A stretch of 48,380 bases of DNA. Source: Acetobacteraceae bacterium. GTDB taxonomy: Bacteria > Pseudomonadota > Alphaproteobacteria > Acetobacterales > Acetobacteraceae. Under the pieces are notes generated by a model. It saw only the letters and a list, made by a program, of their open reading frames with translations. It made no database searches and had not been told where the DNA came from. Shown piece by piece: positions 1,408 to 37,770 of the stretch; the stretch's first letter is position 1, and every line of letters starts with the position of its first letter. The translations under genes and the position numbers were made by a program. Location of the stretch: NCBI GenBank assembly GCA_027353465.1, contig DAIEHR010000202.1:1-48380 (forward strand), read 5' to 3'.

Positions 1408-2190
1408 ATGGACCTGAACCTGCGCGGACGGACGGCGCTGATTACCGGGGCCTCCAAGGGCATCGGCATCGCCAGCGCCGAGAGCCTCGCCGCCGAGGGC
1501 GTGAATCTTATCCTGGTTTCCCGCACGCAAGCCGACCTGGACGCCGGCAGGGCGCGCATCGCCGGACGGCACAATGTCAATGTGCGGGTCTATGCTTACG
1601 ACCTGTCGGACAGCCGCAATGTGGACGCCCTGGCAGCCGCGCATCCCGACATTGATATCCTGGTGAACAACGCCGGAGCCATTCCAGGCGGCGACCTTCA
1701 AGCGATCGACGAGCAGCGCTGGCGGGAGGCATGGGACCTGAAAGTCTTCGGCTACATCAACATGTGCCGCCGCTTCTACGCAGCCATGAAAACGCGCGGG
1801 CGCGGCGTTATCATCAACGTGCTTGGCATGGCCGGGGAAAAGATGGACAGGGACTATATCGCCGGCTCCACCGGCAATGCAGGTCTGATGGCATTCACCC
1901 GAGCGCTAGGTGGATCGGCGGGGGATGACGGTTTGCGTGTGGTGGGCATCAACCCCGGCGCCATCGCCACCGATCGCCTGATTACCCTGATGAAACAACG
2001 CGCCAAGGTCAGGTTCGACGACGCAAGCCGCTGGGAGGAGCTGATGCGGCCCCTGCCCATGGGCCGGGCGGGAAAGCCGCGGGAGATCGGCGATATGGTT
2101 GCGTTTCTGGCGTCGGACGTGTCGGCTTACACGACAGGGACCATCATCACCATCGACGGGGGCGCCGCCAATCGCGCGCCGATGTTCTGA
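1408..2190 (+). CDS. Divergent short-chain dehydrogenase/reductase-like protein
   Basis: A 260-residue classical-SDR fold protein. The cofactor motif TGASKGIG is at residues 13-20 and NNAG at 87-90. The start was chosen at 1408 because AGGAGG lies 7-8 nt upstream; the frame is open further upstream but has no such signal. The C-terminal IDGGAANRAPMF resembles normal SDRs. The active-site region is odd: the usual Ser is replaced by Gly near residue 140, the loop is short, and after Tyr150 (RDYIAGSTGNAG) the expected Lys at Y+4 is Ser154. It may bind NAD(P) without classic SDR catalysis, or use other residues. It lies downstream of the lactonase-like gene and may share its pathway. The substrate is unknown. 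Confidence 0.8.
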   Translation: MDLNLRGRTALITGASKGIGIASAESLAAEGVNLILVSRTQADLDAGRARIAGRHNVNVRVYAYDLSDSRNVDALAAAHPDIDILVNNAGAIPGGDLQAIDEQRWREAWDLKVFGYINMCRRFYAAMKTRGRGVIINVLGMAGEKMDRDYIAGSTGNAGLMAFTRALGGSAGDDGLRVVGINPGAIATDRLITLMKQRAKVRFDDASRWEELMRPLPMGRAGKPREIGDMVAFLASDVSAYTTGTIITIDGGAANRAPMF

Positions 2191-2209
2191 AGGAAGTCCA
2201 GCTGGTATT

Positions 2210-2809
2210 CTATCGGGAAAATCGCCGCCGTCGGCCGACGCGCATGCGCTGCAATTCGGCCTCCCCCTCGATGAACTGATGCTTCAACGCGCCCAGGACA
2301 TGCAGTGCCACCAGTCCGTATAACGCGTAGCCCAACCAGACATGCAGCGCGAACAACTGGCCATGCACGCTCTCCTTCGTCACGGGGTCTAAATGTGCCA
2401 GCGCACCGATCCGAAACCACGGGATTACCCAAAATATCCGTAACGGATGGGCCGCGGCATCCTTAAACGCGGAGTCATGCAGCCATCCGGAAATCGGCAA
2501 CGCCAATATCAACCCATACAGGACGATATGCGCTTCATGGGCCGCGGCCCGCTCGACCCGCCCATACGATTCTGGCAGTGGCGGTGCCGGATGCGCCATC
2601 CGCCAAAGGATTCGCATCAACACCAGCCCGATCACTGTCAGTCCGATCGATTTGTGCAGGTCGATCGCTGGTCGAATCCAGTTGTCCGGGAACAATTCGG
2701 CGGTATAGCCCAGCCCCGCATTGACGACGATAAGGGCGGCAACCAGCCAGTGAAGCACGGCGGCAACGCGGGTGTATTGCCAAACAGGTTCGGCCATATT
2801 CTCGATCAT
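2210..2809 (-). CDS. Cytochrome b561 family membrane protein
   Basis: A 199-residue integral membrane protein with about four transmembrane helices, of the bacterial cytochrome b561/CybB type. It is a di-heme quinol-oxidising electron carrier, suggested for this family to move electrons from ubiquinol to superoxide or another acceptor. Candidate heme-ligand histidines lie in the helices: His20 (VAAVLHWLVAA), His52 (DLHKSIG) and the pair in the last helices (LFALHVWLGYALYGLVALH). The C-terminus is basic (VGRRRRFSR), consistent with a cytosolic tail. A second in-frame ATG four codons in (MAEPVW) is an equally likely start. It is convergent with the SDR, with only 19 bp between the stop codons. 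The family call is firm; the partner is unknown. Confidence 0.88.
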   Translation of the reverse strand: MIENMAEPVWQYTRVAAVLHWLVAALIVVNAGLGYTAELFPDNWIRPAIDLHKSIGLTVIGLVLMRILWRMAHPAPPLPESYGRVERAAAHEAHIVLYGLILALPISGWLHDSAFKDAAAHPLRIFWVIPWFRIGALAHLDPVTKESVHGQLFALHVWLGYALYGLVALHVLGALKHQFIEGEAELQRMRVGRRRRFSR

Positions 2810-2887
2810 CGGCTTGATATTCGTTGTATTGCCCTATTTGCAAGCAGGTGGGCGCACCCGGCCCGCCATGAGGCCGCGACCACCCGC

Positions 2888-4339: not shown

Positions 4340-4459
4340 ATCGATCCGCAAGACCATGGACCTGCGCCCGCCATGACGGTCTGGCCAGATCGTCGCCCAT
4401 CGAATCATCGGTTGATTGCCCGATTGGGCACGACCCCGCCGCGACAAAGCGGACCCCTG

Positions 4460-6457
4460 CTATTCCGGTGGCGGAATCCTTGCCAGCGCAAGCCGCACGT
4501 CGCGCCAACTGGCGCAGACACCCCCGACGTCCCGGGTGAAGTAATCATAGAACTCATCCAGCCAACCCAGGAACCTGGCGAGGTCCTCCCCGCTGCGCAC
4601 ATACGGCGTATTGCCGGGTTCCAGCGAAGGGCTGTGATAGGTCAGCACAAAGACCTTATGGCCATTCGCAACCATATGGCCAACCAGGCGCTTGGCCTCA
4701 TTGATGGTGATGCCCTCCGGGGTCAGCTTGATCCGTTCCAGCAAGCCCAACCGGGACATGACCGAGGGAAGTCCGATCGCCTCACTGTATCGGCCAAAAA
4801 CACGAGCCGTCAGCACATGCGGCAATCGCGCGGCCCGCCCAACGATGGCCGCCGTGACAGGCAATTCCAGTATCTTCCGCTCAGCATCGATCCAGTAAGG
4901 ATTTGCCCCCATCGCGCGGAAGTCGGGACCACCCTGGGCGGCGAAATTCCAGCAAGGGACCACGCTGCTGTCGGCATCATAACCAAAATGGCTCAATACC
5001 CCACCGGTGTTAGGGCCCACCCCGTATCGGCCGGCCCGGAATATGCGCGGCGCCTGACCGAATGCCTTGGCCAATTCTTCCGTTAGAACCTGAATCTTTG
5101 CGAACTCCAGGGCCGGCGGAAGGTTGCCCTGATAGCTGTTGTGCGTTGAAACATATTCGACAAACGGCGGGGTCACCCATGGATGCAGTTGCGCGCCGAT
5201 TTCGCAGGCTCCGCTCTGCAGCAATTCCTTCAGCGGTGCCCGACCCTCATCCTGCGACGCTACCGGATGATCAACCATATAGGTCGGAACGACACCGTAT
5301 CGTTCAAATATCCGATGTGCCAGGTGCTGGGACCGCATCGACGTCACATCCGTCGCCGCTCTGGAAAACGGCCGTGTCCAATCGAAATCCTCCTCGGCAT
5401 CAATTGTGGTGATCAACATCGGATGCTTGAGTCCCAGCTCGATGGCTGGTTCATGAAATTTGGCATCCAGAATCGACACCCGGCTCGGCTTGGTATCTGG
5501 ATGCTCGTCCAACTCGAAAGCCGGGGCGGCGTTTGCCTGAGTCGCATTGGTCTTTCGAGCAACCTCGCGCTGCTCGAACAGCCGCACCGTGTTGCGACGC
5601 ATATCGAGCACGGGGGCCGGCATCGCGGCGATCGCCAGATGCAACAAATTCCGACTGCTTGGGGCTTCCCTGAACGCACGGCCCAGAAGATGCCGAGCGG
5701 TGGGAAGATCGCGTTCGAACAAAGCCTTGCGGCCGAAATCGACGATGATTTCGTTCCGCTTTTGCTTAATCATGGTCTCTGGCAGAGACAGGCGCTCTCC
5801 GATGTCGTCAACGTTGAACAGCGACGCCCGCATGAATCGCTCGGAATTGGATGAAATGCCAATGCCGCGGGTATAGTGCACAAGAACATGCGGACATGTA
5901 ACGATCTTCCAAGCGGAGGCTGCGACGCGGATCCATAGGTTGTAGTCCTCGACACTGATCAATTCGCGCGCTTCGTTGAACCCCCCTAGCGCATCGAACA
6001 CCGAACGGCGCAGTAGAACCGACGAGTTGATGATCCAGTTGCGGTCCCACATGTGATCGAAGGTCAGCCTGGCAGGGACTGCATCCTCGCGATGATCGGG
6101 AAGACAGTGAATCATCCCCGCATCGGCCTCGGCAGCTTGCTCAAGCTGGACCTTCAGTTTCTCTGGAAACCACCAGTCATCTGCATCCAGCAGTGCAAGC
6201 CAGTCACCCTTTGCCAGACTGGCGCCAAGGTTGCGGGCGCTTGCGGGTCCGCCATTTTCCTTCTCGATCAACCGGACGGGAGGCGGCATGCGGCGCACGA
6301 CCTCGCGCGTGTCGTCCTTTGACCCATCGTCAACAACCAGGATTTCCAGGGGCTTGTGCGTCTGGGCCAGCGCACTTTCTACCGCCCGGGTTACATAAGC
6401 GGCGGCATTGTAGGCCGGAATGATGACACTGACCGTGCCGCCTCCGTTATCGGACAT
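4460..6457 (-). CDS. GT2 glycosyltransferase fused to a polysaccharide-deacetylase-like domain
   Basis: A 665-residue two-domain protein. Residues 9 to about 230 are a GT-A family 2 transferase: VSVIIPAYNAAAYV near the start, VVDDGSKDDT at 42-51, LLDADDWW at 88-95 and VEDYNLW at 169-175. A linker (about 230-340) leads to a region resembling NodB/polysaccharide deacetylase-like TIM-barrel proteins: ITTIDAEEDFDW at 349-360 (acidic cluster D353, E355-D357), QLHPWVTPPF near 423-432, FRAGRYGVG at 473-481 and TYHSPSLEPG at 606-615. The architecture suggests one protein that adds a sugar and removes an acetyl group (or hydrolyses a related bond) in the same pathway. No transmembrane helix is obvious, so it is likely cytosolic or peripheral. 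It is the last gene of a minus-strand operon and overlaps the upstream GT4 by 11 bp. Deacetylase activity is inferred. Confidence 0.82.
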   Translation of the reverse strand: MSDNGGGTVSVIIPAYNAAAYVTRAVESALAQTHKPLEILVVDDGSKDDTREVVRRMPPPVRLIEKENGGPASARNLGASLAKGDWLALLDADDWWFPEKLKVQLEQAAEADAGMIHCLPDHREDAVPARLTFDHMWDRNWIINSSVLLRRSVFDALGGFNEARELISVEDYNLWIRVAASAWKIVTCPHVLVHYTRGIGISSNSERFMRASLFNVDDIGERLSLPETMIKQKRNEIIVDFGRKALFERDLPTARHLLGRAFREAPSSRNLLHLAIAAMPAPVLDMRRNTVRLFEQREVARKTNATQANAAPAFELDEHPDTKPSRVSILDAKFHEPAIELGLKHPMLITTIDAEEDFDWTRPFSRAATDVTSMRSQHLAHRIFERYGVVPTYMVDHPVASQDEGRAPLKELLQSGACEIGAQLHPWVTPPFVEYVSTHNSYQGNLPPALEFAKIQVLTEELAKAFGQAPRIFRAGRYGVGPNTGGVLSHFGYDADSSVVPCWNFAAQGGPDFRAMGANPYWIDAERKILELPVTAAIVGRAARLPHVLTARVFGRYSEAIGLPSVMSRLGLLERIKLTPEGITINEAKRLVGHMVANGHKVFVLTYHSPSLEPGNTPYVRSGEDLARFLGWLDEFYDYFTRDVGGVCASWRDVRLALARIPPPE

Positions 6458-12472: not shown

Positions 12473-12562
12473 GGATGGGTGGCCGAGCGGTTTAAGGCAG
12501 CGGTCTTGAAAACCGCCGTGCGTGTAAGCGCACCGTGAGTTCGAATCTCACCCCATCCGCCA
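12473..12562 (+). tRNA. tRNA-Ser (anticodon UGA)
   Basis: A 90-nt class II tRNA. The acceptor arms are GGATGGG (12473-12479) and CCCATCC (12552-12558), followed by discriminator G and encoded CCA at 12560-12562. The anticodon stem GCGGT/ACCGC encloses loop CTTGAAA, with anticodon TGA at 12507-12509. A long variable arm (about GTGCG-TGTAAG-CGCAC) and the T-arm with GTTCGAATC complete the fold. The D-arm reads TGGCCGAGCGGTT. The long variable arm and the discriminator G support serine. It decodes UCA (and other UCN by wobble). Confidence 0.96.
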
Positions 12563-35257: not shown

Positions 35258-35392
35258 GCGCGCGGTCGGCTCACTGCGCCCATCGTGGCCCCGCACGGTT
35301 CCGAATGCGGTTGCCAGCCCCGCACCACCAGGACAATCTGAACCATCGCGTCGGGAAAAATCCCCTGCGAAACAACGATCAGGAGGCAAAGC

Positions 35393-36004
35393 ATGGCACG
35401 TATCCCAATCCTGCATGAAGACGACCCCGCTACCCCGGCCGACGCCAGGGCGTACCTACAGGAAGCGGGACAGTCGCGCGGGCGCCTTATCAACATCTAT
35501 CGCGCGATGGCCAATCGGCCGGAAACCGGCCGTGCATTTTCCGCCCTCGCGAATACGGTGTACCGGGGCACTACCACCCTCGACCCGAAGGACGGGGAGC
35601 TCGCCTATCTGACCGCCACCGTCGTCAATAACTGCTACTACTGAATTCCCACCCACACAGTGCTCGGTCGGAGCCTTGGGTTAACGGAAGACCAGATGCG
35701 GCATTTGAACGACGATCCGCTGCCCGACGGCGTATACGACGCCAAACAGGCGGCCATCGTCCGTTACGCGCGGAAATCCACGCGCCTGGAACGGATCGAC
35801 GACGCAACTTATGCTGGTCTGGCCGCGCATTTTTCGATCCCGCAAATTATGGATATCTGTCTGACTGTCGGCCTCAGCAACATGGTCAACCGATTCCATG
35901 CCACCTTCCAGACCGACGTCGATGCCTCGACGCTGGAGGCGGTCGAAACCGGGGATGCCATCGCCGGCGTATGTGCCATACCGATACCGAAACCGCCGGG
36001 TTAA
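35393..36004 (+). CDS. CMD/AhpD-like protein with in-frame TGA at the catalytic CxxC: candidate selenoprotein
   Basis: Reading through one TGA (35642-35644, codon 84) gives a 203-residue carboxymuconolactone decarboxylase/AhpD-like protein, all in one frame. Without readthrough the gene would stop after 83 residues. Visible features are the helix LDPKDGELAYLTATVVNN before the active site, then Cys81-Y-Y-TGA84-I-P-T-His88. In relatives this is C-x-x-C-x-x-x-H, so TGA replaces exactly the second cysteine. Downstream residues LGRSLGLTEDQMRHL, AAIVRYARKSTRLERIDDAT and MDICLTVGLSNMVNRFHATFQ are normal for the family, and no further stop occurs until the TAA. AGGAGG lies 7-8 nt before the ATG. AhpD-like proteins are thiol-based peroxidases/disulfide reductases; CMD/AhpD-like families are known to include selenoproteins. 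Recent nonsense mutation is the alternative. Confidence 0.72.
35645..35684 (+). promoter_or_regulatory. Candidate bacterial SECIS hairpin
   Basis: The hairpin starts just after the TGA. The upper stem is GCTC (35662-35665) with GAGC (35671-35674), and the 5-nt apical loop GGTCG starts with two G. Below it, pairing continues with single mismatches down to 35655/35681. The loop begins 21 nt after the TGA, within the spacing reported for bacterial SECIS elements. SelB would bind here to insert selenocysteine. The structure was folded by eye only. Confidence 0.5.
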
Positions 36005-37302: not shown

Positions 37303-37770
37303 CTACCCCAGGCTCTTCGCCGCTGCCAAAACCTCTTCCGCGTGCCCTGGAACGCTGACCTTGCGCCAGATCTTCGCGATCTTCCCATTGGCGCCGATCA
37401 GAAATGTCGTCCGCTCTATCCCCATGTACTTCTTGCCGTACATAGATTTCTCTACCCATGTTCCATACCGTTCCGCCACCGCATGAGCCTCGTCCGAGGC
37501 CAACGGAAATGTCAGCCCGTATTTCGACGCGAACTTCTCGATGGGCTTCATCTTGTCGGGAGACACGCCGATCACATCGATCCCGATCTCCGAGAAAATC
37601 GGCAATCCCGACTGGAACGCGCAGGCTTCCTTGGTGCAGCCGGGGGTGTCGGCCTTCGGGTAGAAATACAGGATAAAAGGCTTACCCTTCATGCCGGAAA
37701 GGCTGACCGTTCGGCCTCCGGTCGCCGGCATTTCGAAATCAGGCGCGATATCTCCGTCCGCGAGGCTCAT
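37303..37770 (-). CDS. bcp: Thioredoxin-dependent thiol peroxidase Bcp (peroxiredoxin)
   Basis: A 155-residue peroxiredoxin of the PrxQ/Bcp type. The peroxidatic Cys45 is in PKADTPGCTKEAC and the resolving Cys50 lies five residues later in the same helix, as in E. coli Bcp. Other signatures are LYFYPKADTPGCT, GVSPDKMKPIEKFASKYGLTFPLASDE and the C-terminal RTTFLIGANGKIAKIWRKV. It reduces hydrogen peroxide and organic peroxides in the cytosol using thioredoxin. It is convergent with the MFS gene (16 bp apart). The nearby CMD/AhpD-like gene is also a thiol redox protein, but they are on opposite strands. Confidence 0.95.
   Translation of the reverse strand: MSLADGDIAPDFEMPATGGRTVSLSGMKGKPFILYFYPKADTPGCTKEACAFQSGLPIFSEIGIDVIGVSPDKMKPIEKFASKYGLTFPLASDEAHAVAERYGTWVEKSMYGKKYMGIERTTFLIGANGKIAKIWRKVSVPGHAEEVLAAAKSLG

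Follow-up and report, generated by a model that had tools for sequence, protein, structure and literature searches.

Does a TGA codon in the middle of a CMD/AhpD-like gene end a broken frame, or does it specify selenocysteine (Sec)? The question is raised by a locus in the window, by which we mean the whole 48,380-nucleotide (nt) stretch of Acetobacteraceae DNA that was analyzed. We are nearly certain that the locus encodes an AhpD-like selenoprotein, with UGA-84 read as Sec under the direction of a candidate hairpin and with predicted AhpD-type chemistry.

An open frame interrupted only by TGA

The features of the locus, all on the plus strand, are as follows.

35381 to 35386, plus strand: AGGAGG, a Shine-Dalgarno-like site 6 nt before the ATG, from the sequence
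35393 to 36004, plus strand: the proposed AhpD/CMD-like selenoprotein gene, 203 codons with an in-frame TGA (Sec) at codon 84 and a TAA stop
35597 to 35599, plus strand: codon 69, Glu, predicted from residue spacing to be the proton-relay Glu (equivalent of Glu118 in Mycobacterium tuberculosis AhpD), invariant in 23 of 23 aligned rows
35633 to 35635, plus strand: codon 81, Cys, predicted partner (resolving) Cys of the CxxU motif, invariant in 23 of 23 rows
35642 to 35644, plus strand: TGA, proposed Sec codon 84, at the second Cys position of CxxC, TGA in 25 of 25 distinct genomes
35654 to 35656, plus strand: codon 88, His, predicted from residue spacing to be the proton-relay His (equivalent of His137), invariant in 23 of 23 rows
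35659 to 35677, plus strand: putative upper hairpin of a bacterial SECIS (bSECIS) element, with arms at 35659 to 35665 and 35671 to 35677 and a U bulge or U-C mismatch at 35661 in the window sequence
35666 to 35670, plus strand: apical loop GGUCG of the putative SECIS, 21 nt after the UGA, from folding; GGUCG in 27 of 28 rows of the extended alignment (A3)

An earlier note on this DNA had described a single 203-codon frame broken only at codon 84, and sequence and translation confirm it. From the ATG at 35393, 83 sense codons lead to the TGA, which is followed by 119 sense codons and the TAA at 36002 to 36004, with no other stop in between. Located 41% of the way along the frame, within C81-Y-Y-TGA-I-P-T-H88, the TGA falls, as had been claimed, on the second Cys of C-x-x-C-x-x-x-H. 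Third-position G+C content (GC3) remains high across the TGA: it is 0.76 on the 5' side of the TGA and 0.70 on the 3' side, and the two flanking genes have 0.80 and 0.79. The read-through protein matches the Pfam CMD family (PF02627) with 44.1 bits, passing the gathering cutoff of 23, and the match (residues 43 to 119) spans the TGA. Standard gene calling turns the gene into two separate frames, of 83 and 114 residues, as gene finders usually do with proteins of this kind.

Conservation of the TGA and constraint on both sides of it

Searches of 98 relatives and of the GTDB contig collection (22 loci) yielded 25 distinct genomes with the gene after duplicates were merged; genomes G002, G029, G005, and G020 appear to be those of loci L051, L052, L053, and L071, with identical tRNA-Sec positions. 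Codon 84 is TGA in every one of the 25, from the window's own genus to a Rubrobacter metagenome-assembled genome (MAG), G820, and down to 35% identity. Over the aligned span, 23 of the 25 loci have no further break. The two exceptions are L053, which has one more stop besides a gap at its N terminus, and L071, in which codon 83 is TAA and a frameshift occurs; both copies may be decaying or misassembled. The main alignment, A1, has 23 rows; L051 and L052 (the same genomes as L022 and L023) were kept out of it, as were L053/L025 and L071/L026, which are disrupted. Five further stretches, all from G820's class and including one from the frameshifted copy in G853, bring alignment A3 to 28 rows.

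Substitutions relative to the window gene are similarly constrained before and after the TGA: pN/pS is 0.16 and 0.15, respectively, for the closest relative, 0.15 to 0.39 on both sides in 20 of 22 pairs, and 0.51 to 0.67 in the two most distant pairs, L070 and L027. The low values on both sides exclude a decaying remnant as the general case. A pseudogene, in which a TGC-to-TGA nonsense mutation left the downstream part to decay, is therefore very improbable. It requires only one base change from a Cys codon, and 2 of the 25 relatives (L053 and L071) do have further breaks, but the same TGA recurs in all 25 genomes across the range of divergence given above, pN/pS stays low after it, and codons 90 to 93 are under additional synonymous-site constraint (see below). 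We reject both pseudogene and sequencing error on the basis of the 25 recurrences and the downstream constraint, and the earlier argument that a random nonsense mutation is improbable gains from the recurrence together with purifying selection on both sides.

When 63 match rows were aligned to the profile, the codon-84 column contained 9 U, 20 Cys, 29 Glu, 3 Val, and 2 gaps. Cys thus occupies the TGA position in 20 of the 52 non-UGA homologue rows that have a letter there (the others being the 29 Glu and 3 Val), a check that had been proposed for this locus, and all 20 of these rows also have Cys at position 81, like the UGA rows. In a FastTree phylogeny of 76 tips, built after matches of fewer than 110 residues and repeated UGA rows had been dropped, the 23 aligned TGA orthologues group together (support, 0.997), and no other tip, hence no Cys member, falls within their clade.

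The gene is rare. Among the listed matches from 385 genomes of the class, two score far above the rest, at 364 and 249.5 bits, and in each of them codon 84 is TGA; the next four listed (100.4 to 91.5 bits) are free of stops and show Cys in the codon-84 column. Some lower-scoring listed matches carry a TGA whose place within the gene is unassigned; the best 30 loci of this search were taken, and their codon-84 column was inspected. Among 398 genomes of the phylum, the sole match at an E value of 1e-30 was the window's own genome, and the plasmid collection gave no match at 1e-15. In the class of the Rubrobacter MAG, 6 of 39 genomes match at 1e-25: G820, G834, and G835 have TGA orthologues, G832 has one full and one partial copy, G853 has a copy broken by a frameshift, and G824 has only a more distant TGA homologue.

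That class holds further TGA-bearing homologues. In G820, a second CMD paralogue (L070, positions 4376 to 4987, plus strand) lies 13 nt upstream of the orthologue, so that two UGA genes of one superfamily are adjacent; its motif, A-E-Y-U-G-P-H-H, retains the UGA and has Ala for the first Cys. G853 (L169/L172) has a similar copy, A-R-Y-U-G-P-R-H. A third TGA type, N-E-C-N-Y-U-Q-S-H-G-A-G-L, occurs in L170 and L174 (G824 and G832) and scores 96 to 97 bits against the A1 profile. Beside the two CMD selenoprotein genes, the L070 contig also encodes a SelD (1802 to 2860, minus strand) that has a TGA at codon 25 (G-U-A-S-K) and probably itself contains Sec.

Selenocysteine machinery in the carriers

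The window's own genome is a 4.59-Mb MAG of 413 contigs that is 77% complete. When its Sec machinery was looked for, as the earlier note had proposed, selA, tRNA-Sec, and selD were all found, and selB was represented just by its C-terminal half. SelA (456 amino acids, 541.8 bits) is encoded on contig C357 with the tRNA-Sec gene directly behind it (71.8 bits; called by ARAGORN as tRNA-SeC, anticodon tca). SelD, on contig C339, is fused to an oxidoreductase and scores 298.4 bits against TIGR00476. The SelB piece, 441 residues at the end of contig C42, scores 158 bits against a full-length cutoff of 242. A frame at the end of contig C35 (L016), the sole contig-end candidate tested for the missing SelB N terminus, was rejected as EF-G. 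The isolate Rhodopila globiformis DSM 161 carries both the gene and tRNA-Sec, which lessens the concern that the MAG mixes organisms.

The SelD fusion (L017, 1387 to 3501, minus strand, on C339) is a 704-residue protein in which SelD is C-terminal to a pyridine nucleotide-disulfide oxidoreductase domain; it scores 454.9 bits against TIGR04369, under that model's cutoff of 700. The window has a single RNA gene according to both ARAGORN and Rfam: a tRNA-Ser (tga) at 12473 to 12562 (plus strand), which scores 46.3 bits against the tRNA-Sec model. We rejected it as a cryptic selC, since it is just below the cutoff of 47 and the true tRNA-Sec is on C357.

Across the carriers, tRNA-Sec was found in 24 of 25 genomes and selA matches in 22 of 25. 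G805 (L055) gave neither, and G807 and G813 gave no selA match. In the sample of 98 genomes, tRNA-Sec is present in 7 of 7 carriers versus 37 of 91 others (P = 0.003, Fisher exact test, uncorrected for relatedness); restricted to the genus, this comparison does not reach significance (6 of 6 versus 21 of 27, P = 0.27). With machinery found elsewhere in the genome and the TGA found in other genomes, the original proposal of a selenoprotein is supported.

These data also bear on whether the UGA might be translated as something other than Sec (Trp, for example), by readthrough or under a reassigned code. Readthrough alone would likewise keep the frame open past a conserved TGA. Yet Trp appears in none of the 52 non-UGA homologue rows at the codon-84 column, which holds Cys, Glu, and Val, with a second Cys at position 81 in every Cys row; the gene travels with tRNA-Sec and selA; and six neighboring frames in the window, translated under table 11, match Pfam families. 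We give a non-Sec reading hardly any weight.

A candidate Sec insertion signal

The best explanation is that UGA-84 would be decoded as Sec by SelB and Sec-tRNA-Sec, as directed by the GGUCG-loop hairpin that lies 21 nt downstream, inside the coding region. This hairpin is a candidate insertion signal, proposed from sequence. In the window, folding of a 40-nt stretch gives a 5-nt GGUCG loop on 4 + 2 bp with one bulge, at -13.0 kcal/mol. The bSECIS model as given in PMC13188914 calls for a loop of 3 to 9 nt with an early G, a stem of 4 to 16 bp, a spacing of 16 to 37 nt, and a minimum free energy of at most -7.5; the window hairpin falls within these constraints, and the agreement is less clear in some relatives. 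The single exception to GGUCG among the 28 rows of A3 is the frameshifted copy, with U at the first position.

Codon usage in this region is unusually uniform. Codons 91 and 92 are CTC GGT in all 23 rows, codon 93 is CGG in 21, and codon 94 is AGC in 17; even L027, at 35% identity, reads CTC GGT CGG AGT at codons 91 to 94. Once corrected for amino acid, synonymous identity is highest in the gene at codons 91, 92, and 90. Codons 90 to 93, which form the 5' stem arm and loop of the hairpin, are the four-codon run of strongest excess synonymous identity, which is equaled in 2 of 10,000 permutations of the columns (uncorrected for relatedness).

Support for the stem itself varies with the measure. 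Over the 28 sequences (27 distinct), 85.7% of cells pair, a value as high in 2 of 500 shuffles, and the covariation score of 0.260 is reached by none of 500 and is lower in all slid versions of the stem. Other measures on the same sequences are unremarkable: pair changes on both sides (497 of 500 shuffles), further pair types (91 of 500), and cells changed on both sides (28 of 500). The outer pair of the hairpin is missing in 13 of the 27 distinct rows, and the third pair is missing in 7. For the first 23 rows, support is modest, with 24 of 500 shuffles as well paired and 9 of 500 reaching the covariation score. RNAalifold did not recover the hairpin and proposed another, weak helix. When the window hairpin was folded with four different flanks, equally good folds came from 23, 14, 25, and 47 of 200 shuffles. 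Of ten relatives folded singly, several (e.g., L054, L057, and L066) have a different structure as their best fold. A U-bulged version of the stem was set aside, having less support across relatives than the continuous stem.

The loop resembles that of formate dehydrogenase (FDH) genes. Four Sec-FDH genes of the window's own genus (two in G002 and one each in G021 and G029) share with Escherichia coli fdhF a UGA and a nearby hairpin whose loop contains (G)GUC. Counting the U of UGA as position 1, the GUC lies at positions 23 to 25 in E. coli fdhF and the four genus genes, whereas it lies at 26 to 28 in the window gene, and FDH is a protein unrelated to the AhpD-like one. From the shared GUC loop, we infer that one SelB recognizes both the FDH and the AhpD-like genes.

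Predicted fold, active site, and function

Glu69, Cys81, Tyr83, U84, and His88 are invariant in all 23 rows. M. tuberculosis AhpD is described as using Glu118, Cys130, His132, Cys133, and His137, and Pseudomonas aeruginosa PA0269 as using Glu36, Cys48, Tyr50, Cys51, and His55 (PMC3141380). The window protein has the relay spacing of both, Glu-x11-Cys-x-(His/Tyr)-Cys-x3-His (PMC3141380). The Glu/Cys/Cys/His relay of AhpD is thus found here as E69, C81, U84, and H88, with Sec for the second Cys; the known enzymes differ in having Cys at this position, and identity to the PA0269 structures 2ijc/2o4d is 22%.

An AlphaFold2 model built from the 23-row alignment, with Cys at position 84, is all-helical with an AhpD-like fold (pLDDT, 90.1); one helix covers residues 65 to 79, and the next, helix 84-94, has the Sec position as its first residue. 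The best fold matches in the PDB are 2pfx, 2prr, and 3c1l, which are peroxidase-related or AhpD-like proteins, and lower matches include 2ijc/2o4d and the debrominase Bmp8. A sequence profile search returned the same families, Bmp8 included.

The model bears on a further alternative, in which the UGA mostly terminates translation to give an 83-residue product and the full-length protein is made only when selenium is abundant. Bacterial UGA decoding is generally incomplete, which would favor such regulation, as would the location of the TGA well inside the frame, at 41% of its length. However, the first 83 codons stop just before helix 84-94, so a truncated product would be without part of the active site, and the clade contains no Cys version in the tree. 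We consider regulated truncation improbable.

The preferred reading remains full-length decoding, the product of which would be an all-helical, AhpD-like, peroxidase-related selenoprotein of the CMD superfamily. In it, Sec84 would react with a peroxide or disulfide substrate, would be resolved by Cys81, and would lose its proton by way of a Glu69-His88 relay close to Tyr83, as in AhpD. Sequence provides the frame, the conserved UGA, the machinery, the candidate signal, and the predicted fold, and from these we infer Sec insertion, peroxidase chemistry, the reductant, and the substrate. The protein is probably a Sec-dependent hydroperoxidase or thiol-disulfide enzyme.

A real selenoprotein might nevertheless be a thiol/selenol redox enzyme other than a peroxidase, such as a disulfide reductase or a reductive dehalogenase. 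Bmp8 shares the fold and is among both the sequence and the fold matches, and no conserved gene partner points to AhpC; on the other side, the AhpD relay (Glu/Cys/Tyr/Sec/His) is complete, and the best matches are peroxidase-related proteins. This alternative is a substantial possibility, though the less probable one; it concerns function alone and is compatible with Sec decoding of the UGA.

Gene neighborhood gives no guide to the substrate. The window gene sits between an amidohydrolase gene (PF04909) and an MFS transporter gene, the frame of which overlaps it. When neighbors were clustered at the 25 loci (flanks no longer than about 5 kb and much shorter at several loci), none was common to more than 5, so context points to no substrate and operon logic was abandoned as a guide. 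The most common neighbor is the MFS transporter, at 5 of 25 loci (the window, L051, L052, L053, and L071), all in the window's genus, and there is no conserved ahpC partner beside the gene at the 25 loci. A peroxiredoxin of the BCP/AhpC-TSA type is encoded two genes downstream in the window (37306 to 37770, minus strand) and also near L053 and L071.

Relation to known selenoprotein families

That CMD/AhpD-like families include selenoproteins, as the earlier note had stated, is borne out by the literature (PMC1088965 and PMC13188914). AhpD-like and CMD-like selenoproteins with CxxU were described in 2005 from Sargasso Sea data (PMC1088965), a 2008 count in ocean data again included AhpD-like selenoproteins (PMC2398784), and both kinds appear in a 2026 review among 119 families and subfamilies (PMC13188914). 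Such selenoproteins have therefore been known since 2005, and the window gene is a further member. Our literature search returned no paper linking a selenoprotein with Rhodopila.

Comparison with the published AhpD-like (example, MCB9421940.1) and CMD-like (example, MBW1767730.1) selenoproteins is by motif and family models. With the AhpD-like selenoproteins (COG2128/TIGR01926; PMC1088965, PMC9312934, and PMC13188914), the window protein shares CxxU and the CMD/AhpD superfamily, and TIGR01926 is its best NCBIfam match. It scores 57.1 bits, however, against a cutoff of 81.8, and the best of the 23 rows, L070, reaches 69.3; the protein resembles TIGR01926 and is not a member by the curated rule. 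With the CMD-like selenoproteins (PF02627; PMC13188914 and PMC1088965), it shares CxxU and passes PF02627. Three (seleno)protein models of the same superfamily, NF053654 (GroundWater_YciW), NF041238 (AhpD_rel_CFYUT), and NF041047 (GSU3128), match it weakly (21.4, 20.8, and 12.1 bits versus cutoffs of 310, 175, and 110), so it is a member of none; the best rows are L027 for NF053654 (61.6 of 310) and L060 for NF041238 (30.2 of 175). None of the 23 rows reaches the cutoff of TIGR01926 or of an NCBIfam (seleno)protein model. L027 passes the AhpD core domain model TIGR00778 (43.8 bits; cutoff, 27.8), whereas the window protein, at 23.8 bits, does not. Because gene calling splits the enzyme and no (seleno)protein cutoff is reached, the gene is probably misannotated in many carriers.

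Implications for selenocysteine use

Cys homologues are widespread for most of the selenoproteins described in PMC1088965, and beside them a clade that is exclusively Sec among the sampled genomes is unusual. According to the portions of a 2006 survey that treat the group, FdhA was the sole selenoprotein in its Alphaproteobacteria (PMC1794560); a passage of the deep-Sep paper counts three known selenoprotein genes in Afipia carboxidovorans, which it leaves unnamed (PMC12013277). Beside the former statement (PMC1794560), the gene described here is a Sec client in Alphaproteobacteria that is unrelated to FDH. Of the seven carriers searched for a TIGR01553-type FDH with a TGA, four (G000, G005, G020, and G083) yielded none, in the presence of tRNA-Sec and the gene; these genomes are 77%, 91%, 86%, and 95% complete, respectively. 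A tentative and rather doubtful extension is that the Sec-exclusive AhpD-like clade, in Alphaproteobacteria and the class of the Rubrobacter MAG, is a client of the Sec machinery independent of FDH. The cultured carrier R. globiformis DSM 161 makes the gene directly testable. If the extension is true, the AhpD-like enzyme may be what maintains the selenocysteine trait in G000, G005, G020, and G083.
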